Shown: positions 7,176 through 42,090 of the stretch, one piece after another
Layout of the letters: each line of letters begins with the position of its first letter
Numbering within the stretch: position 1 is the stretch's first letter
DNA from: Methanoplanus limicola DSM 2279
Lineage (GTDB): Archaea > Halobacteriota > Methanomicrobia > Methanomicrobiales > Methanomicrobiaceae
Direction of reading: 5' to 3'
NCBI RefSeq assembly: GCF_000243255.1
Contig: NZ_CM001436.1
Location: 2,396,020 to 2,460,019, forward strand
DNA length: 64,000 bases
Program-made: the position numbers and the translations under genes
The notes under the pieces: model-generated
Databases searched by the model: none
The model's input: the letters and a program-made list of their open reading frames with translations, nothing else
What the model was told of the DNA's origin: nothing

Positions 7176-8273
7176 TCATCCATCGGACTCATTTCCTTTA
7201 AACATTCCCTCTGTCCCAAGACATATTTTTACAAGCATAAGCATAACCGGCACCTCAATGAGCACACCGACAACCGTTGCAAGTGCTGCTCCGGATGAAA
7301 GCCCAAAGAGAATCGCTGCTGTTGCAATGGCAACCTCAAAATGATTCGATGCCCCAATCATCCCGACAGGAGCTGCATCACGGTAAGGCAGTCTGAAGCG
7401 TCGTGCCAGGACAAAGTAGCCAAGAGTGAATATCAGCATTGTCTGAATGAAGAGCGGAACTGCAATCCAGAGTATTGTTAGCGGATTTTGAACTATTACA
7501 TCACCCTTGAAACTGAAGAGTAAAACAAGTGTTCCAAGAAGTGCGATAATGCTCACCGGAGTTAAAATATGCAGGAATTTCTCCTCAAACCAGGCCATGC
7601 CCTTCTTTGAGATTATCCATCTCCTTGTCAGATAGCCAAGGACAAGAGGAAGCCCGACATATACTGCAACCGAGAGCAAAATAGTCTGCCACGGAATCGG
7701 CATTGAATTAACCCCGAGCAGAAATCCTCCAAGTGGTGCATACAAAATGAGCATTGTAAGCGAGTTTATTGCAACCATAATCAGAGTTAAGCCGTCGTTT
7801 CCGCGTGCAAGGTAACTCCACATAAGAACCATTGCAGTGCATGGAGCAATTCCAAGAAGGATACACCCTGATACATAACTTCTCCAGAGTTCAACCTCAG
7901 TCCCGTTTGCCAGAATTTCTGTTCCGGGAATAAAGTCGACAAAGACATATCCAAGGAAGAAGTATGCAATCAGAAACATTGTAAACGGCTTAATCGCCCA
8001 GTTTATAATAAGCGTCAGCAGAACGGGCTTTGGCGTCTGTGCCGCTCTTAAAACCTCTCCAAAGTCTATCTTTACCATTATTGGATACATCATGAAAAAA
8101 AGAGCGATTGCAATTGGAATTGAGACCTCATAGACAGAATAACTATCCAGTGTAACCGCGGCCTGCGGGAAAAATCTTCCAAGAAGAATACCGCCCGCTA
8201 TACACAGAGCAACCCATATGGTAAGATATTTCTCAAATGTGTTCAGTCTTTTGATATTTTTATGGTCAGACAT
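7176..8273 (-). CDS. acr3: arsenite efflux transporter ACR3 (copy 1)
   Basis: 365 residues with ten predicted membrane helices, normal for ACR3. The conserved Cys of helix 4 is Cys145 ([10 protein letters not shown]) and the conserved Glu of helix 9 is Glu313 ([10 protein letters not shown]). It exports As(III), driven by the proton gradient. It is the first gene of ars operon 1, with two ArsR-type operators upstream. The central kilobase is almost base-identical to the copy at 28028 although the other operon genes are clearly diverged. Confidence 0.95.
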
Positions 8274-8335: not shown

Positions 8336-8355
8336 ATTTCAAATTTGTTTGAAAC
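8336..8355. promoter_or_regulatory. ArsR-type operator 1a
   Basis: ATTTCA-N8-TGAAAC, containing the perfect 7-bp arms TTTCAAA/TTTGAAA at 8337-8354. It lies 63 bp before the acr3 start and is one of nine such sites in the window. Operon 1 has no arsR of its own, so control is probably by the ArsR proteins at 29239 or 33025. Confidence 0.75.
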
Positions 8356-8388
8356 AATAATTGATCATAACCCCATATATATCTAATT

Positions 8389-8408
8389 GTTTCAGATTGT
8401 TTTGAAAC
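8389..8408. promoter_or_regulatory. ArsR-type operator 1b
   Basis: GTTTCA-N8-TGAAAC, exactly 53 bp from operator 1a. The same 53-bp spacing is seen at 33584/33637. Together with 1a it occupies the gene-free stretch between acr3 (ends 8273) and moaD (8577). Confidence 0.72.
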
Positions 8409-8855: not shown

Positions 8856-9036
8856 ATACAAAATCTCCTTACATCCTGTTCTCCCGCAGAAGAGCCACTC
8901 GCAAAAAATTCAGACGGTTTCACAACCGGACCGCAGCCGGCACATTCATTCCCGTAAATATACGGATGCCGCCCGGATCCCGCTGTGAACCATCCCGTGC
9001 CGTAACAACGGTGTTTTTACCACCTCTTCTGCCGGA

Positions 9037-10812
9037 TTATACAAGTCCCAGTTCCTTTATCTTCTCCTCAGATGGTATCCCTTCACTGTCCCATCCCCGC
9101 AGAGTGTAATATTCATCAAGCATCTCAGAAATCCGGGCAACCTGCCCCGCTGGTGCACCCTCCTTCAGCGGTTCGTTCAGCAGCCGGTCCGGCAGATTAT
9201 CATCCCTGCGAGAAAATCCGCGTTTTATATTGTAGAGTTTCTGGAGGTTCCATATCCGTTCGCCAATCTTCATCAGTTCAGCGGCATCGATCTCCATACC
9301 GGTTGTAGCAGTGAGAAGATTCGCATAATCCTCTGCTCCCAGGGCAAATGAAGTGAAGAGACACATCCCCGAGGCATCAATGGATGCTGTCAGGTCCTGA
9401 AACGTCCTGACCCACTGCGGTTTTCCCGTGACCACGTAAGGGTCCAGTTTCTCCGGCGCACCAAGAATCTCGGGCGAGATCATGTACCCGTACACATGGT
9501 CACCGCCCCGGTTTGATGTGGCGGTTGCAAGCGCATATCCCTGAATCCCCCGGGGGTCATAGGCCGGCAGTTCCTGCTTCTTGGAGCTCATGGACAATTC
9601 GGGATAACCGTATTTCGTGGCAAACCGGAAGGAGCCCTCGGCGAGTTCATCCCCGATATCCTCGCGCTTTGCAATCTGTTCCAACAGTTTTAACATCCCT
9701 TCCGCGTCACCGAACCGGATCGGGTGCTTCACGTACCCTTTCTCTGCCATCTCCATCAGGCAGGCGATGGTTGTCGGTGTTCCGATTGCGTCGAGCCCGT
9801 ACTCGTTGCAGATGTTGTTTGCCCGGGCTATCGCCTTAAGATCGCTAATCCCGCAATCGGCTCCGAACGCCCAGTCAGGCTCATACTCCGGCCCTTCCCC
9901 GTGTTCGCCGTCGACTTCGGTGACCCGGCCGCACTGCACGATGCAGGCATAGCATCCCTTGGGTTTCTTGAGGATAGTCTTTGCCATCGTCTCGCCGGAG
10001 ATCTTCTCCGCGTCCGGGAAATGTGCGGTCTGGAAGTTTCGGGTCGGAAGGAGATAGTTCTCGTTGAGGATGTTGATGAGCACAGCGGTACCGTAATCAT
10101 GCAGCGCCTTCTCGATCCCGTTCTCCTCGATCTTCTTGCGTACGCGCTCCTTGACGATGTTGAGCTGCGCTTCATCTGCCGGCTTTATGGGCAGGTCTCC
10201 CCGTGCGGCGATCGCTTTGAGATTCTTTGAGCCCATGACAGCGCCGGCGCCCCCTCTTCCGGCAGCCCGTGCCTTTTCATTGATGATACAGGCAATGAGT
10301 GCCAGCTTTTCCCCGGCCGGTCCGATGCAGGATACACGGACGCTCTTGTCCTCGAGTTCGTCCACAATTGCATCGGTGGTCTGCCCGGTGGTTTTACCCC
10401 AGAGATGAGCGGCATCCCGGAGTACAGCCTCCCCGTTATCAAGCAGGAGGTATACGGGCTTTTTCGCTTTCCCGCTCACGACAACCGCATCAAACCCTGC
10501 TTTCTTCATCTTCCAGCCAAAGACACCGCCGCTGTTGGCACTCATCGCGGTTCCCGTGAGTGGCGAGATTGTCGAGACCTCGTACCGGCTCCCCAACGGG
10601 ATGCCGGTGCCGGTCAGCGGCCCGGCTGCAAATACGAGGACATTCTCCTCGCTCAGCGGATCGATCTTCGGATCGACCATGTCGGTCAGGAGCCGGATGC
10701 CAAACCCCCGACCGCCGATGTACTGTTGCTTGAGTTCCGGTGGCGTGGGCTTTATCGTAACCGTCCCTGCCGAGAGATCGGCATAGACCATTTTTCCTGC
10801 GTATCCGTCCAT
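9037..10812 (-). CDS. aldehyde:ferredoxin oxidoreductase (AOR family)
   Basis: 591 residues from ATG 10812 (MDGYAGKM); the frame is open further upstream but the family begins here. The [4Fe-4S] ligands are visible as CYACIVQC (C-x2-C-x3-C) and a later Cys in SGMCLFTSF. Tungstopterin-contact regions such as GGRGFGIR and EYEPDWAFG are present. The enzyme oxidises aldehydes to acids and reduces ferredoxin in the cytoplasm. It is GC-richer than flanking genes and belongs to the island. Its first 18 codons are repeated at 19092-19145. Confidence 0.93.
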   Translation of the reverse strand: MDGYAGKMVYADLSAGTVTIKPTPPELKQQYIGGRGFGIRLLTDMVDPKIDPLSEENVLVFAAGPLTGTGIPLGSRYEVSTISPLTGTAMSANSGGVFGWKMKKAGFDAVVVSGKAKKPVYLLLDNGEAVLRDAAHLWGKTTGQTTDAIVDELEDKSVRVSCIGPAGEKLALIACIINEKARAAGRGGAGAVMGSKNLKAIAARGDLPIKPADEAQLNIVKERVRKKIEENGIEKALHDYGTAVLINILNENYLLPTRNFQTAHFPDAEKISGETMAKTILKKPKGCYACIVQCGRVTEVDGEHGEGPEYEPDWAFGADCGISDLKAIARANNICNEYGLDAIGTPTTIACLMEMAEKGYVKHPIRFGDAEGMLKLLEQIAKREDIGDELAEGSFRFATKYGYPELSMSSKKQELPAYDPRGIQGYALATATSNRGGDHVYGYMISPEILGAPEKLDPYVVTGKPQWVRTFQDLTASIDASGMCLFTSFALGAEDYANLLTATTGMEIDAAELMKIGERIWNLQKLYNIKRGFSRRDDNLPDRLLNEPLKEGAPAGQVARISEMLDEYYTLRGWDSEGIPSEEKIKELGLV

Positions 10813-10868
10813 GATGATTACCAAAAGTGACTTGAGGGTCAAAGTTATTAAACCTTATTCAAAAAAAG

Positions 10869-10907
10869 TTGAAACGTTAACAGGCAGGGATTGTTAATAA
10901 ATTTCAA
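10869..10907. promoter_or_regulatory. nested inverted repeat upstream of AOR
   Basis: Outer arms TTGAAA (10869-10874) and TTTCAA (10902-10907) and inner arms TTAACA (10877-10882) and TGTTAA (10892-10897) share nearly the same centre. It lies about 60-95 bp upstream of the AOR ATG, after the HxlR gene. It is repeated at 19202-19240 in copy B. It is a likely operator for the AOR-moaD transcript; the regulator is unknown. Confidence 0.5.
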
Positions 10908-10958
10908 TGGATTCAAAAATTTGTTGCCGTATGATTATTACGAAAGATATGAGATTCT

Positions 10959-11330
10959 TCACTTTCTTTTCTTCGGTCCGCAGACGACAATCTTATCATC
11001 GTCAATCATCGGGATCTTCATATGTTCGATCGCCCAGTCGCAGAGAGCATCAAGGAGCGGGATGATCGTGTTCCCCAGCGGCGTGAGCGAATACTCGACC
11101 TTGGGCGGGACCTGGGTGTATACTTTTCTTTTGATAATCCCGTCCTGTTCCAGCTCCCGCAACTGTTTTGTCAGCATCACATCCGTAATACCGGGGATTG
11201 CCCGCCTGATTTCGCTGAACCGCAGCACGCGTTTTCGTAAGTACCAGATGATCAGCGGCTTCCATTTGCCGCCGATAACATCGAGCGTGCCTTCCACCGG
11301 GCAGAAATAACAGGAGGGATCTTTCATCAT
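10959..11330 (-). CDS. HxlR-family regulator (copy A)
   Basis: 123 residues of the HxlR/DUF24 winged-helix type: CPVEGTLDVIGGKWKPLI at the N-terminus, then the recognition region ITDVMLTKQLRELEQDG. The N-terminal CYFC includes the redox- or electrophile-sensing Cys common in this family. It is divergent from the permease at 11472 and lies beside a matching palindrome, so it probably controls that promoter and itself. The copy at 19292 differs only at the C-terminus (GPKKRK versus GTKKKK). Confidence 0.9.
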   Translation of the reverse strand: MMKDPSCYFCPVEGTLDVIGGKWKPLIIWYLRKRVLRFSEIRRAIPGITDVMLTKQLRELEQDGIIKRKVYTQVPPKVEYSLTPLGNTIIPLLDALCDWAIEHMKIPMIDDDKIVVCGPKKRK

Positions 11331-11338
11331 ACACTTTC

Positions 11339-11356
11339 ACTATGTTTTTGTATAGT
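11339..11356. promoter_or_regulatory. HxlR-type operator ACTAT-N8-ATAGT (copy A)
   Basis: Palindrome with arms ACTAT and ATAGT, 8 bp upstream of the HxlR start and in the divergent intergenic region to the permease. The form resembles operators of YodB/CatR-type HxlR regulators. It is repeated at 19672-19689. Confidence 0.55.
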
Positions 11357-11471
11357 ATATTTAATCAGAGTTAGTATCCCATATAAATTTAGTGGCTGCA
11401 GAGATCAATAGGAGATTCCACTGGCATGCATAGCGCCGGGAATCCGTATAAATCACAATAATGGTGAAACC

Positions 11472-12563
11472 GTGTTTGAAGAACAACTGACCATCGCATT
11501 CAATGAATTCGTCCACGTCGCCGTAGTGCTCGTGATCATTATCGCTGTTATCGCGATTCTCACGGGTATCGTGCGTGAATATGTTCCCCAGGAAAAGATC
11601 CAGAAACGCCTCGGGAGCGGCCTCGGGAGAAAAGGGCCGATCATCGGGGCGCTCCTTGGGATACTCACCCCGTTTTGCAGCGCATCGATGATACCGGTCT
11701 CAATGGGAATGATAGAGTCAAAAGTACCCTTCCCGACTGTGCTGGCATTTTTATTCTCTGCCCCGGTCTGCAATTTCATGGTCGTGGGAATCATCTTCGG
11801 GGTCTTCGGCTGGCAGATCGCTCTTGTATATTTTGTCGTGACCCTCGTCATGGCGATAATCGGCGGAACGTTCCTCGGCAGCACCCGGCTGAAGCATGAG
11901 GTCAAGGAAGTGGGGGTCGCAGGCGAATCATACTGCTCCGCATCTGCTCCGGCATCAGCACCCGCATGCGGCGTTCCACTGTCCAGTGCATCTCCGGCAC
12001 CGCTCGCTTCGGGATGTGGGTGTTCAGCACCGGTTACAAAACCGGTTTCGACATGCTGCTTTGAACCCGTGGTTCCATCGTCCGCGTGCTGCGGCTCGAC
12101 ATCACCCGCCGCTGAATATGAGGGTGGAAGTTTCTGGGAACGCAACCGCCCCCGTATCGTCCGAAGCATGCCGTTTGCCCGGGCACTCTTTGTAAAGATA
12201 ATTCCTTACGTGCTCGTCGGTGCAGCGATCAGCGGCATCATCGCGGCGTTCGTTCCTGCATCAATTGTCGAGACCTACGTGGGGAACTCAAACCTCCTCG
12301 CAATCCCGATCGCAGCAGTAATCGGGGTCCCGCTCTACCTGAGAATCGAGATGGCGATCCCTCTGCTCTCGGTTCTTCTTACAAAAGGTATGAGCCTCGG
12401 TGCGGCAATGGCCCTTCTCATCGGGGGGACCGGCGCGAGCCTGCCGGAGATTGCAATCCTGAGTTCTATGCTCAGACCCAAAGCCATCGCAGCATACGTC
12501 CTCTGGGTGTTCGTCACGGCAACACTGGGCGGGTTTGTTTTCTATGCATTGTTTGTCGGATGA
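11472..12563 (+). CDS. ArsP/COG0701-type permease with Cys-rich loop (copy A)
   Basis: 363 residues, about eight membrane helices in two halves. The family motif TPFCSASMIP follows helix 2, and its repeat GGTGASLPE lies in the second half. Between the halves (about residues 155-215) is an Ala/Ser/Pro-rich loop with eight Cys, including GCGC, TCC and ACC. This suggests metal or metalloid capture before export. ArsP relatives export trivalent organoarsenicals. The start is a GTG with GGTGA upstream. The nearly identical copy is at 19805. Confidence 0.85.
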   Translation: MFEEQLTIAFNEFVHVAVVLVIIIAVIAILTGIVREYVPQEKIQKRLGSGLGRKGPIIGALLGILTPFCSASMIPVSMGMIESKVPFPTVLAFLFSAPVCNFMVVGIIFGVFGWQIALVYFVVTLVMAIIGGTFLGSTRLKHEVKEVGVAGESYCSASAPASAPACGVPLSSASPAPLASGCGCSAPVTKPVSTCCFEPVVPSSACCGSTSPAAEYEGGSFWERNRPRIVRSMPFARALFVKIIPYVLVGAAISGIIAAFVPASIVETYVGNSNLLAIPIAAVIGVPLYLRIEMAIPLLSVLLTKGMSLGAAMALLIGGTGASLPEIAILSSMLRPKAIAAYVLWVFVTATLGGFVFYALFVG

Positions 12564-12589
12564 TTATGTGGTAACGGGGTGACGAGAAA

Positions 12590-19091: not shown

Positions 19092-19145
19092 AACCGTCCC
19101 TGCCGAGAGATCGGCATAGACCATTTTTCCTGCGTATCCGTCCAT
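19092..19145 (-). pseudogene. AOR 5' fragment
   Basis: The first 18 codons of the AOR gene (from ATG 19145, MDGYAGKM) carried along at the edge of direct-repeat copy B. Beyond 19092 the sequence is unrelated. No product is expected, although the AOR promoter region is intact and now reads into 18864-19091, which holds no gene I can support. Confidence 0.85.
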
Positions 19146-19291
19146 GATGATTACCAAAAGTGACTTGAGGGTCAAAGTTATTAAACCTTATTCAAAAAAA
19201 GTTGAAACGTTAACAGGCAGGGATTGTTAATAAATTTCAATGGATTCAAAAATTTGTTGCCGTATGATTATTACGAAAGATATGAGATTCT

Positions 19292-19663
19292 TCACTTTTT
19301 CTTCTTTGTTCCGCAGACGACAATCTTATCATCGTCAATCATCGGGATCTTCATATGTTCGATCGCCCAGTCGCAGAGAGCATCAAGGAGCGGGATGATC
19401 GTGTTCCCCAGCGGCGTGAGCGAATACTCGACCTTGGGCGGGACCTGGGTGTATACTTTTCTTTTGATAATCCCGTCCTGTTCCAGCTCCCGCAACTGTT
19501 TTGTCAGCATCACATCCGTAATACCGGGGATTGCCCGCCTGATTTCGCTGAACCGCAGCACACGTTTTCGTAAGTACCAGATGATCAGCGGCTTCCATTT
19601 GCCGCCGATAACATCGAGCGTGCCTTCCACCGGGCAGAAATAACAGGAGGGATCTTTCATCAT
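19292..19663 (-). CDS. HxlR-family regulator (copy B)
   Basis: 123 residues, identical to the product of 10959-11330 except in the C-terminal tail (GTKKKK in place of GPKKRK). It keeps the N-terminal CYFCPVEG and the helix-turn-helix. The divergent operator ACTAT-N8-ATAGT is preserved at 19672-19689, so the copy should be functional. Confidence 0.9.
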   Translation of the reverse strand: MMKDPSCYFCPVEGTLDVIGGKWKPLIIWYLRKRVLRFSEIRRAIPGITDVMLTKQLRELEQDGIIKRKVYTQVPPKVEYSLTPLGNTIIPLLDALCDWAIEHMKIPMIDDDKIVVCGTKKKK

Positions 19664-19671
19664 ACGCTTTC

Positions 19672-19689
19672 ACTATGTTTTTGTATAGT
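19672..19689. promoter_or_regulatory. HxlR-type operator (copy B)
   Basis: ACTAT-N8-ATAGT, same as 11339-11356, between the HxlR and permease copies. Confidence 0.55.
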
Positions 19690-19804
19690 ATATTTAATCA
19701 GAGTTAGTATCCCATATAAATTTAGTGGCTGCAGAGATCAATAGGAGATTCCACTGGCATGCATAGCGCCGGGAATCCTTATAAATCACAATAATGGTGA
19801 AACC

Positions 19805-20896
19805 GTGTTTGAAGAACAACTGACCATCGCATTCAATGAATTCGTCCACGTCGCCGTAGTGCTCGTGATCATTATCGCTGTTATCGCGATTCTCACGGGT
19901 ATCGTGCGTGAATATGTTCCCCAGGAAAAGATCCAGAAACGCCTCGGGAGCGGCCTCGGGAGAAAAGGGCCGATCATCGGGGCGCTCCTTGGGATACTCA
20001 CCCCGTTTTGCAGCGCATCGATGATACCGGTCTCGATGGGAATGATAGAGTCAAAAGTACCCTTCCCGACTGTGCTGGCATTTTTATTCTCTGCCCCGGT
20101 CTGCAATTTCATGGTCGTGGGAATCATCTTCGGGGTCTTCGGCTGGCAGATCGCTCTTGTATATTTTGTCGTGACCCTCGTCATGGCGATAATCGGCGGA
20201 ACGTTCCTCGGCAGCACCCGGCTGAAGCATGAGGTCAAGGAAGTGGGGGTCGCAGGCGAATCATACTGCTCCGCATCTGCTCCGGCATCAGCACCCGCAT
20301 GCGGCGTTCCACTGTCCAGTGCATCTCCGGCACCGCTCGCTTCGGGATGTGGGTGTTCAGCACCGGTTACAAAACCGGTTTCGACATGCTGCTTTGAACC
20401 CGTGGTTCCATCGTCCGCGTGCTGCGGCTCGACATCACCCGCCGCTGAATATGAGGGTGGAAGTTTCTGGGAACGCAACCGCCCCCGTATCGTCCGAAGC
20501 ATGCCGTTTGCCCGGGCACTCTTTGTAAAGATAATTCCTTACGTGCTCGTCGGTGCAGCGATCAGCGGCATCATCGCGGCGTTCGTTCCTGCATCAATTG
20601 TCGAGACCTACGTGGGGAACTCAAACCTCCTCGCAATCCCGATCGCAGCAGTAATCGGGGTCCCGCTCTACCTGAGAATCGAGATGGCGATCCCTCTGCT
20701 CTCGGTTCTTCTTACAAAAGGTATGAGCCTCGGTGCGGCAATGGCCCTTCTTATCGGGGGGACCGGCGCGAGCCTGCCGGAGATTGCAATCCTGAGTTCT
20801 ATGCTCAGACCCAAAGCCATCGCAGCATACGTCCTCTGGGTGTTCGTCACGGCAACACTGGGCGGGTTTGTTTTCTATGTTCTGTTTATCGGGTGA
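19805..20896 (+). CDS. ArsP/COG0701-type permease with Cys-rich loop (copy B)
   Basis: 363 residues, identical to the first copy except near the C-terminus (FYVLFIG in place of FYALFVG). It has the same GTG start, the same TPFCSASMIP motif and the same eight-Cys loop between the membrane halves. Such near-identity indicates recent duplication or ongoing gene conversion. Confidence 0.85.
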   Translation: MFEEQLTIAFNEFVHVAVVLVIIIAVIAILTGIVREYVPQEKIQKRLGSGLGRKGPIIGALLGILTPFCSASMIPVSMGMIESKVPFPTVLAFLFSAPVCNFMVVGIIFGVFGWQIALVYFVVTLVMAIIGGTFLGSTRLKHEVKEVGVAGESYCSASAPASAPACGVPLSSASPAPLASGCGCSAPVTKPVSTCCFEPVVPSSACCGSTSPAAEYEGGSFWERNRPRIVRSMPFARALFVKIIPYVLVGAAISGIIAAFVPASIVETYVGNSNLLAIPIAAVIGVPLYLRIEMAIPLLSVLLTKGMSLGAAMALLIGGTGASLPEIAILSSMLRPKAIAAYVLWVFVTATLGGFVFYVLFIG

Positions 20897-20949
20897 TTCG
20901 TGAGGCTTCGTGACAGATAAGATAACGTGAACAGGTAAGGATGTGAGTG

Positions 20950-31840: not shown

Positions 31841-31860
31841 ATTTCAAATCTGTTTGAAAT
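31841..31860. promoter_or_regulatory. ArsR-type operator upstream of Usp gene
   Basis: ATTTCAAA-TCTG-TTTGAAAT, a perfect palindrome with 8-bp arms, 110 bp before the usp start and the best copy of the ATTTCA-N8-TGAAAT motif. The rest of 31732-32013 holds nothing else I can support. Confidence 0.75.
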
Positions 31861-32859: not shown

Positions 32860-32879
32860 ATTTCAATTTACATTGAAAT
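32860..32879. promoter_or_regulatory. ArsR-type operator of TauE gene
   Basis: ATTTCAAT-TTAC-ATTGAAAT, perfect 8-bp arms, 16 bp upstream of the start codon. Confidence 0.72.
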
Positions 32880-33401: not shown

Positions 33402-33421
33402 ATTTCAACTAAATATGAAAT
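33402..33421. promoter_or_regulatory. ArsR-type operator (autoregulation)
   Basis: ATTTCA-N8-TGAAAT just upstream of the arsR start at 33384. Confidence 0.68.
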
Positions 33422-33583: not shown

Positions 33584-33603
33584 ATTTCAAATTTAGTTGA
33601 AAT
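33584..33603. promoter_or_regulatory. ArsR-type operator 2a of the redox/permease operon
   Basis: ATTTCA-N8-TGAAAT, first of a pair, 68-87 bp before the first gene at 33671. Confidence 0.72.
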
Positions 33604-33636
33604 AATAAATTATAAATATGTCTGATGATAACATAT

Positions 33637-33656
33637 GATTCAAATAAATTTGAAAC
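33637..33656. promoter_or_regulatory. ArsR-type operator 2b of the redox/permease operon
   Basis: GATTCA-N8-TGAAAC, exactly 53 bp from 2a, the same spacing as the pair before acr3 copy 1. It also contains TTCAAAT-AA-ATTTGAA (33639-33654). It rules out the ATG at 33635 as a start. Confidence 0.68.
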
Positions 33657-33670
33657 AGGAATTGATGAAA

Positions 33671-33832
33671 ATGTCTGATGAAAAAGAAACTAATGAAAAG
33701 AAAGGGTTTTTCTCCAGATTTATGAAAGGAGAGGGGAACGAATGCGGCTGCGGCTGCTGCGGCGGCATTAAGATTGTGCCAAAAGAGAGCAGCACTGAAA
33801 AGGAAGACTCTGTAAAGGAAGAGGAATCCTGA
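33671..33832 (+). CDS. small Cys-rich protein
   Basis: 53 residues from ATG 33671 (an ATG at 33665 is an alternative). Between charged ends lies ECGCGCCGGIKIVPK with four Cys in six residues, a likely metal or As(III) site. It is the first gene of the operon and is followed after 4 bp by FTR. No named family is certain. Confidence 0.65.
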   Translation: MSDEKETNEKKGFFSRFMKGEGNECGCGCCGGIKIVPKESSTEKEDSVKEEES

Positions 33833-33836
33833 AAAA

Positions 33837-34130
33837 ATGACAGATTCGGATTCAGTCCTGCAAAAAGAGACTGAAGAAAAAATACTTGCCTTTGCAGAGA
33901 GGTATGCAGAAAAGAAGGGCTTCATCCTCAATCCGGACAGGAAGGAACTTGCGGATGTCATATCCGGACTTTCACGGAATAAAATAAATTCCAAAAAACA
34001 GTACTGCCCCTGCCGCCTCAGAACCGGTGACAAAAAGAAGGACAGAGAGATAATCTGCCCGTGCATCTATCACGAAGACGAGATCGAAAGAGACGGACAC
34101 TGCCACTGCATGGTCTTCTTTAAAAAGTAA
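33837..34130 (+). CDS. ferredoxin-thioredoxin reductase, catalytic subunit
   Basis: 97 residues with the full set of Cys motifs in order: CPC (in YCPCRLRTG), CPC (in ICPCIYHED) and CHC (in HCHCMVFF). These hold the [4Fe-4S] cluster and the redox disulfide in FTR. The enzyme passes electrons from ferredoxin to thioredoxin, which is encoded three genes on at 36504. No variable subunit is seen, as is usual in archaea. Confidence 0.92.
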   Translation: MTDSDSVLQKETEEKILAFAERYAEKKGFILNPDRKELADVISGLSRNKINSKKQYCPCRLRTGDKKKDREIICPCIYHEDEIERDGHCHCMVFFKK

Positions 34131-34133
34131 GGT

Positions 34134-35081
34134 GTGATTGAGACGACTTTAAATCCGGTTGCTGAAATGCTTATAACGGCAGGAGAATTCTTCGTAATAA
34201 TAACACTTGAGCTTGTGCTCCTCTTTATTGCGGTAAGTTTCCTTGTCGGGCTTCTTCATGCATACGTTCCGGAAGAAAAGATTAAAAAGACGCTTTCGGG
34301 AAAGAGAAATGTGAGCAGTACCTTTTTGGGCGGGATATTCGGAGCACTGACTCCTTTCTGCTCATGCTCAACAATTCCCATTCTTGTGGGGTTGTTGAAT
34401 GCCGGAGTTCCGTTCACTGCCTCAATGGCATTTCTGCTGGCATCGCCCCTGTTAAATCCTGTAATAATCTTCCTTCTGCTTGCACTAATAGGTCCTGCGA
34501 TGACTATCCTTTATGTTGCTGTCACCTTTGTAGCAATTATTGTTATTGCAACTATGCTTGGCAGGCTTGGATATGAGCAGTATGTAAGAGAAGTAACAGT
34601 TGAAGGGTTAAAGGCAAAGCCTGTGTGTGAATGTACAAGTGACAGTTTTTCCGGGCGGCACAAACCCCGGCTAAAACAGGCATATGACTTTGCAATATCA
34701 CTCTTCCGGCAGGTTTTCTTCTATCTAATCCTCGGTGCAGGAATCGGAGCGTTCATCTACGGGTTTATTCCGGCAGATCTGATAACAGCAGTCGCAGGTC
34801 CTGACAACCCGTTTGCAATACTGGTTGCAGCCGTAATCGGAATTCCCATGTATATCCGGGCTGAGACGATAATTCCGATAAGTGCGGTTCTGCTCTCAAA
34901 AGGAATGGGTATCGGTGCTGTTGTTGCTTTAATTATCGGAGGAGCAGGAGCAAGTATTCCGGAGATCACACTGCTTGCATCAATCTTTAAAAAGCGGCTT
35001 GTTGCAGCGTTTGTAATCTCAGTTCTTGGTGTTGCGATATCCGCCGGAATCATATTCCAGTTGCTTGCAGGAGTCGTGTGA
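34134..35081 (+). CDS. ArsP/COG0701-type permease 1
   Basis: 315 residues, about eight membrane helices. It has the family motif TPFCSCSTIPILVGLL, a second-half GGAGASIPEI, and VCECTS in the middle loop. The GTG start is 3 bp after the FTR stop. ArsP-type permeases export trivalent methyl- or aryl-arsenicals. The extra Cys in CSCS differs from the island permease (CSAS). Confidence 0.85.
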   Translation: MIETTLNPVAEMLITAGEFFVIITLELVLLFIAVSFLVGLLHAYVPEEKIKKTLSGKRNVSSTFLGGIFGALTPFCSCSTIPILVGLLNAGVPFTASMAFLLASPLLNPVIIFLLLALIGPAMTILYVAVTFVAIIVIATMLGRLGYEQYVREVTVEGLKAKPVCECTSDSFSGRHKPRLKQAYDFAISLFRQVFFYLILGAGIGAFIYGFIPADLITAVAGPDNPFAILVAAVIGIPMYIRAETIIPISAVLLSKGMGIGAVVALIIGGAGASIPEITLLASIFKKRLVAAFVISVLGVAISAGIIFQLLAGVV

Positions 35082-35144
35082 AACTTTAAATGATATCAGG
35101 ATACAAAATGAACCATTACAACCGGAAATTCAGGGTGAAACAAA

Positions 35145-36218
35145 ATGATTGATTTAATTATCGGCTCACTTGTTACAGGCTGGGATACACTTGCAGGATA
35201 TCTTGCTGAGCATGTACTGACATGCTTAATCCCTGCATTCTTCATAGCCGGAGCAATAGCCGCACTTGTAAAAAAAGACGCGATAATGAAATACTTCAGC
35301 CCGGATGCGAAGAAGAGCACTGCATACGGGCTTGCATCTGTTTCAGGAACAGTGCTTGCAGTCTGCTCATGCACAATCCTGCCGATGTTTGCCGGGCTTT
35401 TTAAGCGTGGGAGCGGAATCGGGCCTGCAACGACATTTCTCTATGCAGGACCGGCAATTAACATCTTAGCGATTGTCTACACTGCAAAAGTATTGGGCTT
35501 TGACCTTGGTGTTGCAAGGGCGGCCTTTGCAGTAGTTATGGCGATAATAATCGGGCTTATCATGGCATTTCTCTTCAGGTCACATGATGCCGATACAAAG
35601 AAGAAGAATGCCGCGATGCCGTCTACCCCTGTAGTCGGTGATGCAGAGAAACCGAAATGGGTTGTGCCTCTATTCTTTGTCTTCCTTGTCGGAATTTTAA
35701 TAGCCGGAACGGCACAGGCTGACTGGATGATAAAGTTCCCGATAATTTACCTGCTCACTTTAGGGACGGCGTTTCTGCTGATATACTACTTTGAGCGTGA
35801 CGAAGTTTCAGAGTGGGGACTTGAGACGTGGGATCTTACAAAGAAGATCTTTCCCATACTGATTATCGGAACATTTGCCCTTGGTATGCTCTCGTTCTTC
35901 CTGCCGCCGGAGGTATTCAGGCCGTTCTTTGGAACGAATTCGATAGAGTCGACATTCCTGGCGTCAATAGTCGGAACAATCCTTTATATGCCGACACTGC
36001 TTGAGGTGCCGGTTATCGGGACGACATTCGGCTACACATCAGGTGTTATGGCCGGAGGGCCTGCACTGGCACTGCTTCTTTCAGGGCCGAGCGTGAGTCT
36101 TCCGTCGCTACTTGTGATTTCAAGGATAATGGGCCCGAAAAAGACCATAGTCTATGCCGGTCTTGTGATTGTCTTTTCAGCGGTTGCGGGATTTGTGTAT
36201 GGTATGTTCTTCCTGTAA
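35145..36218 (+). CDS. COG0701-type permease 2
   Basis: 357 residues in two membrane halves separated by a charged loop. The motif AVCSCTILPMFAGLFKRG and the later LYMPTLLEVPVIG identify the DUF318/COG0701 family, but another branch than permease 1. The two may form a hetero-oligomer, or export different species. Substrate unknown. Confidence 0.85.
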   Translation: MIDLIIGSLVTGWDTLAGYLAEHVLTCLIPAFFIAGAIAALVKKDAIMKYFSPDAKKSTAYGLASVSGTVLAVCSCTILPMFAGLFKRGSGIGPATTFLYAGPAINILAIVYTAKVLGFDLGVARAAFAVVMAIIIGLIMAFLFRSHDADTKKKNAAMPSTPVVGDAEKPKWVVPLFFVFLVGILIAGTAQADWMIKFPIIYLLTLGTAFLLIYYFERDEVSEWGLETWDLTKKIFPILIIGTFALGMLSFFLPPEVFRPFFGTNSIESTFLASIVGTILYMPTLLEVPVIGTTFGYTSGVMAGGPALALLLSGPSVSLPSLLVISRIMGPKKTIVYAGLVIVFSAVAGFVYGMFFL

Positions 36219-36232
36219 GGTGAAATGAGCAG

Positions 36233-36487
36233 ATGTCAAAGAGAGATAAACCTTGCTGTGCTGCTGAGGCGATGCGGCGGATAAAAAAGGTGGATGTAGG
36301 TGGTATTGTCGTAGGGCTTGCCATGCTTGAGGACATATGCTATGATGTGCGGGATATGAATATCTCCGGCAGAGAAAAAATCGCCGATGAACTGATGAAA
36401 CAAGTTAAAATTTACAATTATATCCCGGAATCGGCATACGGCAAATACCGTGATGCAGTATTAAAGGAATATGAGATGATGAAATAA
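36233..36487 (+). CDS. small conserved protein with N-terminal CC
   Basis: 84 residues. RDKPCCAAEAMRRIKKVDVG is followed by a predicted helical body ending KIYNYIPESAYGKYRDAVL. Similar small proteins beside COG0701 permeases and thioredoxins occur in other anaerobes as I recall them, but no function is known to me. The vicinal Cys pair could bind As(III). Confidence 0.65.
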   Translation: MSKRDKPCCAAEAMRRIKKVDVGGIVVGLAMLEDICYDVRDMNISGREKIADELMKQVKIYNYIPESAYGKYRDAVLKEYEMMK

Positions 36488-36503
36488 ACGGAGAATGATT
36501 AAA

Positions 36504-36740
36504 ATGAAGATTGAAGTACTTGGAACGGGATGCTTAAAATGCAAGAGGCTCATGAAGAATGTCGAAAAAGCAGTCTCTGAATCGGGTGTTGATGCTGAGA
36601 TTGTAAAGATCGAAGATATAACTGCGATAATGGAGAGGGATGTTATGTTTACACCGGCTCTTGCAATCGACGGCGAGGTAAAAGTCTCCGGAAGGGTTGC
36701 AGACGTTTCTGAGATTAAAGAGTTAATCGGAGGTAACTAA
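36504..36740 (+). CDS. small thioredoxin-like redox protein (copy 1)
   Basis: 78 residues from ATG 36504, with CGGAGA 9 bp upstream. LGTGCLKCKRL has the C-x2-C pair at Cys10/Cys13, and VMFTPALAIDG the cis-Pro region, typical of MTH895/TM0996-type archaeal thioredoxins. It probably takes electrons from the FTR of the operon. Copy 2 at 40026 is nearly the same. Confidence 0.9.
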   Translation: MKIEVLGTGCLKCKRLMKNVEKAVSESGVDAEIVKIEDITAIMERDVMFTPALAIDGEVKVSGRVADVSEIKELIGGN

Positions 36741-37211
36741 ATGGGGGATATTCCTAAATGCACCTGTGGCGGGCCTGATGCCCCCGGCGATAAGAAGAAG
36801 ATTATCTTTTCATGCTCCGGCGCCTCAAATGTCGGTGAACTCTCAAACGCTGCGGCTGTTCTGCTGACAAAGGAGGGTTTTGGAAATAAGGCATGTACGG
36901 CATCACTTGCGATAGAAACCCCGTCTGTTATGAAAAAAGCTGAGGATGCAGATTTGATTGTTGTAATTGACGGATGCCCGGTCGGGTGCGCCAGACATAT
37001 TGCGGAAAATGCCGGTGTGAAGATAGATCAGTATCTCATCGTCACAAAACTCGGAATAAAAAAGATCGGTGATATGGACATAGTTGAGGATGACCTTGAA
37101 ACCGTTGTTTCGGCTGCCTGGGAGGGAAAATGTGTCTGCCAGGATGCTAAAGAAGAAAAAGAGTCCGACAAAAAAGCACCCGTCTGCGGCTGCGGCGGCG
37201 GATGCAGGTGA
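36741..37211 (+). CDS. DGC-domain putative zinc-binding protein (copy 3)
   Basis: 156 residues. CTCGG at the N-terminus, FSCSGASNVGEL, IDGCPVGCARHI and a tail of CGCGGGC: eleven or more Cys, more than in the operon 1 and 2 forms. It begins directly after the thioredoxin stop. It may be the thioredoxin's substrate or a metalloid chaperone; this is inferred. Confidence 0.78.
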   Translation: MGDIPKCTCGGPDAPGDKKKIIFSCSGASNVGELSNAAAVLLTKEGFGNKACTASLAIETPSVMKKAEDADLIVVIDGCPVGCARHIAENAGVKIDQYLIVTKLGIKKIGDMDIVEDDLETVVSAAWEGKCVCQDAKEEKESDKKAPVCGCGGGCR

Positions 37212-37434
37212 GAATTATTAAAACCGATTATCTTCGATAAGATATTGCTTACCAGAAAAAGATCCATGAAAAACCTCCAACATAATTTATAATCTAAAAA
37301 ATGTCGTGAAAATACCATCCACGACCACAGGAAATATCAAAATATTATTTTTTTGGAAATAAGGGCAGCGTAACCTCTTTAAGATTCGAAGAAGCTGACT
37401 GAACTATAATCATAATTAACAGGATGAATTTAAA

Positions 37435-38202
37435 ATGACAGAAATTAGTGAAATTAAAAAAGCAGGTGAAGCAATGAAGAGTATCCTCGGACTTCGCGGT
37501 TCACCTGTCGGTGTGAGACTTTTGAAAGACGATAAACCTGTAGCTGGTGCAGTTATGGCCGGAGGCAACCGTTATTGTCAGGCACTTATGTGGGCAAGAC
37601 ACGGTGAACATGTAATCGTAAACAAAGAGACGATAGCATGTCCGGCGGCTGCACGGGCTTTCGGGTTTAAACCATTGCCTGAACCATTAAAGAGCGGAAA
37701 GGGCCTTGTCGGATTTGGCATTACCTCTGAAGAGACTGTCGGAAAGATGATGTTTGAAGGCATGACAGTTTTTGAGATGGATGAGATTAAACAGATAGAG
37801 CTGTTCCCTCTTGAAAAAGCAGAATCTCTTCCTGATATAATCGTTGTCGAGGATGAGACTGAGAAACTCATGTGGATTACTCTTTCATACATGCATTCTC
37901 ATGGCGGAGAACGTGTTAAAGGTTCAACTGCTGTTCTTCAGGCAACATGTGTTGACTCAACCATTATTCCGTTCCTGGAAAAACGCTTAAACTATGGTCT
38001 TGGCTGCTATGGATGCCGCGATGCAACCGATATGGCATCCGGTGAGGCAATACTCGGATTTCCGGTGAAAGAATTGTCCGCAATTGTTGAGCATCTTACA
38101 TATCTTGATAAAAAAGCTCTGCCTCATTCACGGGGCAAACATGCATATGCATCTTTAAAGGGCGAAATGAAGACAGGGGAAGGTTCCTGTTCTGAATCTT
38201 AA
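37435..38202 (+). CDS. DUF169-family protein
   Basis: 255 residues. The family pattern is seen in LRGSPVGVRLL, RYCQALMWARHGE, and LNYGLGCYGCRD. DUF169 proteins are often next to cobalamin or redox genes in anaerobes and have no assigned reaction. A 223-bp gap without other signals separates it from the DGC gene, so it may have its own promoter. The conserved Cys suggest a redox or metal role. Confidence 0.8.
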   Translation: MTEISEIKKAGEAMKSILGLRGSPVGVRLLKDDKPVAGAVMAGGNRYCQALMWARHGEHVIVNKETIACPAAARAFGFKPLPEPLKSGKGLVGFGITSEETVGKMMFEGMTVFEMDEIKQIELFPLEKAESLPDIIVVEDETEKLMWITLSYMHSHGGERVKGSTAVLQATCVDSTIIPFLEKRLNYGLGCYGCRDATDMASGEAILGFPVKELSAIVEHLTYLDKKALPHSRGKHAYASLKGEMKTGEGSCSES

Positions 38203-38288: not shown

Positions 38289-39932
38289 TCACATTCCGCA
38301 GGTTGAGCGGTCACGATAATATTTTTCACAATAAGAACCAAGCAATTTAACGATTTTTTGGTTATCCAAGCTATAATTTTGTATTTTCACTGTAAGGTTT
38401 CCATCACAAATGATGGTAACTTCCCTAACTCTTCTGAACAGGAAGAATACCCACTTGAGTGTCGGTTTATTCGTTGGTTTGTCTTTCTGGTCTGGGACGG
38501 ACTCTCCAGACTCTAACAACACTTTTCGTATTCTGAATTCAGCAACAGCATATACAAATAAGCATATCGCCATTAATGCTGCCAGTGCTTCAATCCTTTC
38601 TTCTTTCTTTAGAAATACCTCAGAAACCAGGAATTGTTTGTCTTTTACAAATCTGAATCCCCTTTCGACCGTATTTTGATTTTTATAATTGCTGAGAAGT
38701 TCATCCGCTGTCAGTTCAAGGTCATTTGTTGCAAGGACAAATCTTCCTGCTCTGAGTTTTTCCCCCTTAATAATCTCAGAATCCTCGTTCGGTTTTGCTC
38801 TAATAAAGAATACCTTTTTGAGTATCTCATCAGCTCTGGGTCTCCCTTTCTTACCATTTTCCCTTTTGTTTTTGCTGATAATGGAGTATGTGGTAGATCC
38901 AAACATTGGATTTTTTACAATCCACTTTTTTATTGCTTTTTCTGCATCTTCCTGGCAACTGAATTCCTGATTCATCAGTCTGGAAATCTCATTTTTAGCC
39001 TTTATTGTCTTCTTTTCAAGTTTTTCTTCAATTTTTTTAAGATCGCTTTTTACCCTTTCTTTTGCTTCATACATCACCCATTTCTGCTCAACATTACCAT
39101 AGCCAGACATTGTTTCAAAGCAGGAATACCTTTCATCTCCACAATCAATCATTTCGACATCAGATTTTGTCAGGTTGACCACTTCACTTATTGTTCCTTT
39201 AGCTCTGGAAATCCAGAATGTAGTCTCACTTATCTGTTTTATGTTATCTTCTGAATAAAACGCAGCATCAGCGATATAATAGACTTTTTCGTCAAATATG
39301 AGTGATTTCTGGAAGTTTTGGATCATTTCAATAATGCTTTCGCTATCTTGTTTATTGCCTGAAAATGCCTCCACAAATAATGGTATTCCCACTTGATTTG
39401 TCGCAATTCCAAGCACAAAACGATTAAGATCCCACCTTCCGTCTTTTGGATAACCCTTTGTGATATTGATAGTATTGTCAGAATTCCGATTATATTTGCC
39501 ATAAACACTGAAATTGGTAGTATCAACATGGATTAGTTTGGCTGCAAATTCATCATTGATTAAAGATTGAACTACAATTTCATTGAATAATCTGGTCGCA
39601 CCATATTCATAAACTGCATCAAGAGTACGGCCAATAACGTCGTCATTTAGATGCTCAAGCCTAACACCCTCGCCAAGTAAATTTTCAACGGCAAGATCAT
39701 TGAAGAATTTAGGAAAGAGGTAAAGTCGGCGTTCTGTAAAACCAAGACCATTCAAAACCATTGCCTTAAGAACCTGTCCATGGGACAGATTATACTGGCG
39801 CTTTTTTGGGAGAGAATTGTCTGTAATTATCCCAATATGAAGAGAATCAAATATTCCTGCTACCAGGCCAAGGTGATATATTGACTCAATTGAACCATCA
39901 ACATAACTATCTAAGATTTCCATAGATGACAA
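38289..39932 (-). mobile_element. IS1634-type transposase
   Basis: 547 residues, apparently intact. The DDE residues can be placed in IHVDTTNFSVYG, YYIADAAFYS and NTVERGFRFVKD. The N-terminal DUF4277-like part (YHLGLVAGIFDSLHIG) is typical. It lies between two copies of the thioredoxin-DGC pair. I could not define terminal inverted repeats by eye. Confidence 0.88.
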
Positions 39933-40025: not shown

Positions 40026-40262
40026 ATGAAGATTGAAGTACTTGGAACGGGATGCTTAAAATGCAAGAGGCTTATGAAGAATGTCGAAAAAGCAGTCTCG
40101 GAATCAGGTGTTGATGCAGAGATTGTAAAGGTCGAGGATATAGTGGAAATCATGGAGAGGGACGTCATGCTCACTCCGGCTCTGATGATTGACGGTGAAC
40201 TGAAGGTCTCCGGAAGGGTTGCGGATGTTGCCGAGATAAAAGAGCTTATCGGAGGCAACTGA
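40026..40262 (+). CDS. small thioredoxin-like redox protein (copy 2)
   Basis: 78 residues, over 85% the same as the copy at 36504, with Cys10/Cys13 in GTGCLKCKRL. AGGTTGA precedes the ATG. It differs mainly around VEDIVEIMERDVMLTP. It forms a two-gene unit with the DGC gene, cut off from the main operon by the insertion element. Confidence 0.9.
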   Translation: MKIEVLGTGCLKCKRLMKNVEKAVSESGVDAEIVKVEDIVEIMERDVMLTPALMIDGELKVSGRVADVAEIKELIGGN

Positions 40263-40265
40263 AAG

Positions 40266-40727
40266 ATGACTGATATTCCACAATGCACATGCAGCTGCGG
40301 GGATGCAGCAGGAGGGAAGAAAAAGATAATCTTCGCCTGTTCAGGAGCTTCAAATGTCGGGGAACTCTCCAATGCTGCCGCTGTAACGCTTACAAAGGAA
40401 GGCTTTGGCAACAAAGCCTGTACAGCCTCACTTGCGATTAAAACTCCTTCCGTTATGAAGAAGACAGAGGATGCTGATGAAATTGTTGTAATAGACGGAT
40501 GCCAGGTCGGGTGCGCCGGACAGATTGCAGAGAATGCAGGTGTGGATGTGGATCAGTATATCATCATCACTAAACTTGGAATTAAAAAGACAGGTGATAT
40601 GGATATTGTTGAGGATGATCTTGAGAGTGTCGTCTCTGCTGCATGGGAAGGGAAGTGTATCTGCCGGGAAAATGAGGACAATAAGAGCGATAACTCCAGA
40701 TGCGGATGCGGCGGAGGATGCAGATAA
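40266..40727 (+). CDS. DGC-domain putative zinc-binding protein (copy 4)
   Basis: 153 residues, paralogue of 36741 with the same Cys motifs (CTCSCGD, FACSGASN, DGCQVGCAGQI, CGCGGGC). It is 3 bp behind the thioredoxin gene. The pair is a tandem duplicate of 36504-37211. Confidence 0.78.
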   Translation: MTDIPQCTCSCGDAAGGKKKIIFACSGASNVGELSNAAAVTLTKEGFGNKACTASLAIKTPSVMKKTEDADEIVVIDGCQVGCAGQIAENAGVDVDQYIIITKLGIKKTGDMDIVEDDLESVVSAAWEGKCICRENEDNKSDNSRCGCGGGCR

Positions 40728-42070: not shown

Positions 42071-42090
42071 GTTTCAAATAAAATTGAAAT
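42071..42090. promoter_or_regulatory. ArsR-type operator of the binding-protein gene
   Basis: GTTTCA-N8-TGAAAT, ninth copy of the motif, between 36 and 55 bp upstream of the lipoprotein start. Confidence 0.7.

Follow-up and report, generated by a model that had tools for sequence, protein, structure and literature searches.

We analyzed a 64,000-nt stretch of the Methanoplanus limicola DSM 2279 genome (hereafter the window), which is part of a single 3.20-Mb contig, and characterized an operon in it that encodes two ArsP-type permeases (A and B) and several small cysteine-containing proteins downstream of a divergent arsR gene. On balance, we favor reading this operon as an efflux system under ArsR control whose substrate would be a thiophilic metalloid, with a trivalent arsenical or antimonial as the likeliest candidate; in it, an 84-aa protein (P5), a small thioredoxin and a DGC-domain protein would form a cysteine relay, with a ferredoxin-thioredoxin reductase (FTR) as an optional link to ferredoxin. 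Judged by its sequence it is likely a metalloid-resistance operon, and its gene company and the control that it appears to share with an ACR3 pump gene make an arsenical the probable substrate. The original prediction for this region had proposed a redox-coupled metalloid efflux operon. What stands of that proposal is an ArsR-controlled permease operon with thiol-redox partners that recurs in anaerobes and has its operator type in common with an ACR3 pump, whereas FTR, permease A, the Cys-rich peptide P1 and the DUF169 protein do not belong to the core.

To our knowledge, few studies have dealt with arsenic resistance in methanogens, even though arsenic is mobilized in the flooded soils, wetlands and digesters that they inhabit. 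The operon is a defined, recurrent gene set with a new small protein family, P5, as its marker, and it allows a possible connection between ferredoxin and metalloid export to be tested. Its paired operators could supply a promoter for use in an archaeal metalloid sensor as well as a means of finding more members of the regulon, and the operon would give DGC proteins a cellular setting.

Recurrence of the gene core

P5 was searched for in 60 relatives, with a score of 54 bits or more taken to indicate an orthologue. An orthologue was present in 40 of them, one truncated copy counted in, and a weaker paralogue was more widespread. From a collection of named genomes, 80 P5 loci were retained, almost all of them carrying the label Methanomicrobiales or Euryarchaeota, and annotated with profiles from the window proteins; gene order was counted in 78 of these loci and gene presence in the 40 that had 5 kb on both sides of P5, in both cases without correction for relatedness. 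The core that emerged consists of ArsR divergent from permease B, P5, thioredoxin and DGC, in nearly fixed order. Upstream of P5, the nearest annotated same-strand gene was permease B in 54 of the 78 loci and permease A in another 11; downstream, the nearest annotated gene was thioredoxin in 68. Within 5 kb of P5, thioredoxin occurred in all 40 loci, permease B in 38, DGC in 36 and ArsR in 32, followed by a second DGC type (28), ACR3 (26), FTR (15), permease A (15), ArsC (11), P1 (10), DUF169 (8) and TauE (3). Neither ACR3 nor ArsC lay within this distance in nine of the 40 loci, yet the permease and the thioredoxin were kept. The core was found throughout the order, far above chance, which disposes of the concern raised with the original prediction that the gene set might not recur elsewhere.

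Outside the order, one locus (L191) had permease B, P5, thioredoxin and DGC followed by a thioredoxin-like and a CcdA gene, and another (L190) had the core or most of it. In one further family (L193, L194), permease B, thioredoxin and DGC stood together and a P5-like gene adjoined permease A and ArsR; in L195 a P5-like gene lay beside permease A. No P5 was found on bacterial plasmids. Two loci from other genera, L072 and L049, were near-identical to the locus described here (97.7% over TauE-ArsR and 89.7% over the permeases) and had no FTR; their sequences are probably the product of recent horizontal transfer and decay.

The FTR protein scored 80 bits against PF02943 (cut-off 22), and its six cysteines, which make up the cluster and the redox pair, were kept in 28 or 29 of 29 rows, as befits a catalytic subunit; its relatives in the PDB are 7pwe, 4tpu and 1dj7. 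The gene is one of three FTR genes in this genome, and all 60 relatives have between one and three. FTR had been put forward as part of the gene combination, but it does not belong to the core: its 15 occurrences among the 40 named loci exceed the estimated chance level of about 1% of loci (two or three targets in ~2.3 Mb), but operon FTRs take varied positions and come from several FTR branches. A single dedicated clade of operon FTRs was rejected in view of about 9 label changes on a tree that has few columns and in which three of the "background" rows (L205, L209 and L229) are operon genes themselves, inflating that number. Because the operon FTRs come from several branches, the FTR link seems to have arisen repeatedly or through local transfer. 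Since operons lacking FTR sit in genomes with an FTR gene elsewhere, a ferredoxin link would be possible for all of them.

ArsR and its paired operators

The double ArsR-type operator named in the original prediction was confirmed as two TTCAA-N6-TTGAA palindromes, accompanied by a divergent ArsR gene (Table 1). Matches to the palindrome with up to three mismatches numbered 9 in the window against 0.25 expected, and a separate scan gave ten operator sites against 1.6 expected. Apart from the site at 19191, which has no listed gene start nearby, the sites stand upstream of one ACR3 gene, the ArsR gene, the operon, and genes for an aldehyde ferredoxin oxidoreductase (10858-10873), Usp (31843-31858), TauE (32862-32877) and a periplasmic binding protein (42073-42088); the last four sites suggest a wider regulon. 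Only two close pairs were present in the window, at ACR3 (8338/8391) and at the operon (33586/33639), and both have the same 53-bp spacing. The operator pair common to the operon and ACR3 is the strongest evidence that the operon may belong to an arsenic-type response. Genome-wide, exact WTTCAANNNNATWTGAAA sites numbered 7 in 3.2 Mb, 6 of them within the 64-kb window, and allowing up to one mismatch raised the number to 51, as compared with 10 for a reversed control.

The arrangement also occurs in relatives. Among 81 distinct ArsR/operon intergenic regions, 73 had a site, 50 had two or more and 48 had a pair spaced 48-53 bp apart (48 bp in seven, 51 bp in eight, 52 bp in 23 and 53 bp in ten). 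Dinucleotide shuffles gave 0.8% and 0, with no pair at the 48-53-bp spacing. A spacing of ~52 bp corresponds to about five helical turns. The ArsR protein scored 72 bits against NF033788 (cut-off 55), and its CxC pair (C77, C79) and H95 were invariant in 101 of 101 family rows; a winged helix of the ArsR/SmtB type with CxC identifies it as an ArsR metalloregulator. An alternative in-frame ATG for P1 occurs at 33635; the start at 33671 is the better one because the operator at 33639-33654 sits just past the upstream ATG.

Table 1. Genes and predicted operators of the operon and related sites (window positions)
Feature	Position	Strand	Remarks
P1, 53-aa Cys-rich peptide (CGCGCC...KIVPKE)	33671-33832	+	no Pfam/NCBIfam family
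FTR catalytic-type protein, CPC / CPC / CHC cysteines	33837-34130	+	PF02943 1e-22
Permease A, COG0701/ArsP_1 type with CSCS	34134-35081	+	PF03773 9e-57
Permease B, distinct ArsP_1 branch, core gene	35145-36218	+	PF03773 2e-72
P5, 84-aa protein, N-terminal PCC motif, marker of the system	36233-36487	+	no family match
Small thioredoxin, MTH895/ArsE family	36495-36740	+	Thioredoxin_3 PF13192 / TIGR00412
DGC-domain protein, Cys-rich tails	36741-37211	+	PF08859 4e-32
DUF169 protein, occasional accessory	37435-38202	+	PF02596 3e-49
ArsR/SmtB repressor, divergent, CxC pair C77, C79	33025-33408	-	PF01022 3e-11; NF033788 above cut-off
Predicted operator O1, at ArsR start	33404-33419		TTCAACTAAATATGAA; close variant of TTCAA-N6-TTGAA
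Predicted operator O2	33586-33601		TTCAAATTTAGTTGAA; TTCAA-N6-TTGAA palindrome
Predicted operator O3, 53 bp from O2	33639-33654		TTCAAATAAATTTGAA; TTCAA-N6-TTGAA palindrome
Predicted operator pair, O2/O3 type, upstream of ACR3 gene (7176-8273, -)	8338-8406		sites 8338/8391, spacing 53 bp

Operon proteins and proposed function

The seven genes from P1 to DGC (33671-37211) are separated by gaps of 4, 3, 63, 14, 7 and 0 bp, and DUF169 follows after 223 bp, so that the coordinates, order and gaps originally given were correct. The families originally assigned (FTR, two ArsP permeases, thioredoxin, DGC and DUF169) likewise held up, all scoring above the Pfam gathering threshold. Against PF03773 (ArsP_1; cut-off 32.3 bits), permease A scored 193 bits and permease B 245 bits, and all four ArsP_1 permeases of the genome are located in the window. 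C76 and C78 of permease A were kept in 43 of 44 rows, and H23, C27, C74 and C76 of permease B in 98-99 of 100; permease B scored low with the permease A profile and represents a separate branch. No significant solved-structure relative was found for permease B, DGC or DUF169. The thioredoxin is a member of the MTH895/ArsE family (TIGR00412, 107 bits against a cut-off of 62), with CxxC present in 133 of 133 rows and 1ilo as its relative in the PDB.

P5 had no match in Pfam, NCBIfam or the PDB, and its C8 and C9 were kept in 94-95% of rows. Its AlphaFold2 model (pLDDT 89) has two strands and four helices; a known fold was rejected, with no Foldseek match at E<=0.001 and a best VIA-align hit (Z 4.7) to a designed protein. 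In P1, C27, C29 and C30 were kept in 22-24 of 24 rows. Four cysteines of DGC are likewise conserved (C25 and C79 in 110 of 110 rows, C83 in 109 and C52 in 106). Its predicted model (core pLDDT >90) has an alpha/beta arrangement whose flavodoxin-like neighbors are not specific, and Foldseek found no match for it at E<=0.001. An ArsC-like (low-molecular-weight, LMW, phosphatase) fold was considered for DGC: pI258 ArsC (Z 6.4, rmsd 3.3, 95 aligned residues) tied with flavodoxins and quinone reductases, and the match therefore shows only a common alpha/beta arrangement. In the literature searched, a single studied DGC protein was found, the redox-sensitive, putatively zinc-binding AnvM of Pseudomonas, which has a predicted zinc site and whose 11 cysteines include one that is very sensitive to oxidation (PMC6650552). 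Two fused ORFs were observed, each in a single genome and each possibly reflecting the loss of a stop codon or an error in the sequence, namely P5-thioredoxin (166 aa) in Methanogenium marinum and thioredoxin-DGC (219 aa) in one metagenome-assembled genome (MAG); the fused pairs are usual neighbors in other genomes. Conserved thiols, in pairs or larger sets, occur in almost all of the operon's proteins, and from this pattern we infer a possible relay, since a relay for thiophilic species would need such thiols.

In the mechanism that we propose, a metalloid bound at the CxC site of ArsR would make the repressor dimers leave the two operators, and the operon would be switched on along with the ACR3 pump gene and further genes of the island. 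Export of the metalloid species would fall to permease B, which has one conserved histidine and three conserved cysteines, and to permease A, which has a CSC motif. P5, given its fixed adjacency to permease B, may act as a small docking or chaperone protein whose vicinal cysteine pair hands the thiol-bound species to that permease. Thioredoxin would keep the relay cysteines reduced or free the metalloid from them, FTR, where present, would pass ferredoxin electrons to thioredoxin, and DGC (and P1) may serve as thiol buffers. A stronger version, which we regard as speculative and on the whole doubtful, would make permease B, P5, thioredoxin and DGC one reductive export machine. At the P5/permease interface, ferredoxin electrons arriving via FTR and thioredoxin would reduce the bound metalloid or its protein thiols and thereby power its release and export, and P5 would found a new metallochaperone family.

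Several observations weigh against metalloid efflux of this kind. The CxC motif of ArsR/SmtB proteins also serves Cd/Pb sensors, and the metal of this ArsR is therefore not fixed. Most relatives lack FTR, P1, permease A and DUF169. P5 is truncated in L072 (another genus) and frame-shifted in L049 (a MAG) with permease B and thioredoxin retained, which means that P5 may be dispensable; since P5 has no fold match, the role given to it rests on position. The window genome has no ArsM above cut-off, so methylated arsenicals would need an outside source.

Known systems and alternative explanations

In bacterial ars islands, as in the operon, ArsR and an ArsP-type permease stand next to a small thioredoxin of the same family ("redox-active disulfide protein 2"), near ACR3/ArsC. 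Plasmid modules of ArsR, permease and thioredoxin, or with permease and thioredoxin close together, lie beside ArsC, ACR3, ArsH or arsenite methyltransferase in Acinetobacter (L156), Sulfuricella (L157) and Rhodobacter (L161). Unlike the operon, the bacterial modules examined have no P5, DGC or FTR, and their permeases are of the A type, except for one permease B relative in Leptolinea. Methylarsenite and roxarsone are effluxed by ArsP, whose Pfam family, ArsP_1, is common to permeases A and B, permease B appearing as a separate branch. A selenocysteine-assisted organometal (SAO) system was reportedly described by Haft and Gwadz in 2023. It has the idea of a permease with a thiol/selenol relay in common with the operon, but it uses selenocysteine, of which the operon has none, and the permeases fall below the SaoE cut-off. 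In the ArsEFG system (Chen, Zhang and Rosen, 2019), as cited in PMC9144182, ArsG is an efflux transporter, ArsE and ArsF confer resistance to organic arsenicals, and the system is reported to act on aromatic organoarsenicals. In both that operon and the present one, an MTH895/ArsE-family thioredoxin accompanies an efflux transporter, a predicted one in the present case; as described in that citation, the three-gene set does not include P5, DGC or FTR, which sets it apart. The operon extends a known type of ars module, permease plus thioredoxin, with a second type of permease, P5, DGC, FTR and a pair of operators at a set spacing; new in it are P5 as a family, DGC and FTR as partners, and the pair of spaced operators. 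The combination had been thought not to be a described system. This is so for the full gene set, for which no paper was found in the open-access literature, a search that misses most subscription journals; it is not so for modules of a permease with an MTH895-type thioredoxin, which occur in bacterial ars islands, and thioredoxin, redox-active disulfide protein 2 and CcdA have been given as ars-operon genes (Castillo and Saier, 2010; PMC2963123).

The operon sits in a large metalloid island (5085-42035). Besides an arsR-arsD-CMD-arsA set and three ACR3-like genes, the island has two permeases that resemble SO_0444 and ArsC genes of the LMW type accompanied by DGC genes. Thioredoxin and FTR could instead re-reduce an ArsC of the LMW-phosphatase type for arsenate reduction, the permeases being a separate function within the cluster. 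ArsC of this type does use thioredoxin (review PMC6205960) and, as counted above, lies near P5 in 11 of the 40 named loci. However, ArsC is missing from the operon itself, the island's ArsC genes are located elsewhere, next to another DGC gene and to genes for thioredoxin-like and CcdA-like proteins, and the nine loci without ACR3 and ArsC retain permease and thioredoxin. As thioredoxin is also fixed beside P5 and the permease, and once fused to P5, we consider this explanation unlikely. Efflux of soft metals (Cu, Zn, Cd, Pb), as by SO_0444 Cu/Zn exporters, is less likely still. A CxC ArsR could be a Cd/Pb sensor, and permease A scored 118 bits (permease B, 85 bits) against the SO_0444 equivalog, but these scores are far under the curated NCBIfam cut-off of 300 bits, the operators are common to ACR3 and not to the CDF-like transporter gene of the window, and ACR3 is close by in 26 of 40 loci.

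We give little credence to an organomercury system comparable to SAO. In both, thioredoxin-like proteins and proteins with a Cys pair accompany an ArsP-like permease (review PMC13188914), and permeases A and B reach 115 and 94 bits against SaoE; that equivalog, however, has a cut-off of 325 bits, the conserved sites hold cysteine rather than selenocysteine, and HgcA had no match in this genome and was above cut-off in only 12 of 60 relatives. A thiol- or sulfur-stress operon exporting persulfide or sulfite under a BigR-like sensor, with the ars neighbors incidental, seems just as improbable. The adjoining TauE/SafE gene has its own operator, the redox-sensitive AnvM is a DGC protein (PMC6650552), and ArsR has a weak similarity to BigR, but the latter amounts to 32 bits against a cut-off of 155, and TauE is rare near P5 (3 of 40 loci) where ACR3 is common. 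An anti-phage function found no support, as PADLOC gave no match for the eight operon proteins. Arsenite methylation and mercury methylation were each rejected as a required partner of the operon, ArsM being above cut-off in 13 of the 60 relatives and HgcA in the 12 just mentioned.

Further observations concern the surroundings and paralogues of the operon. The segments 10759-12565 and 19092-20898 of the island are 99% identical copies, and two of its ACR3 genes are 98% identical. A second intact thioredoxin-DGC pair (40026-40727, +) has about 80% DNA identity to 36498-37144, with a DDE transposase gene (38289-39932, -) between it and the operon. Most relatives have a P5-like paralogue with CxxC in place of CC (G000:C1:893480-893683; L074, L197), which lies away from ars genes. 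At a locus from another family of the phylum (L192, genome G184), a protein that by eye resembles arsenite methyltransferase (9011-9826) lies ~1 kb from a P5-like gene.

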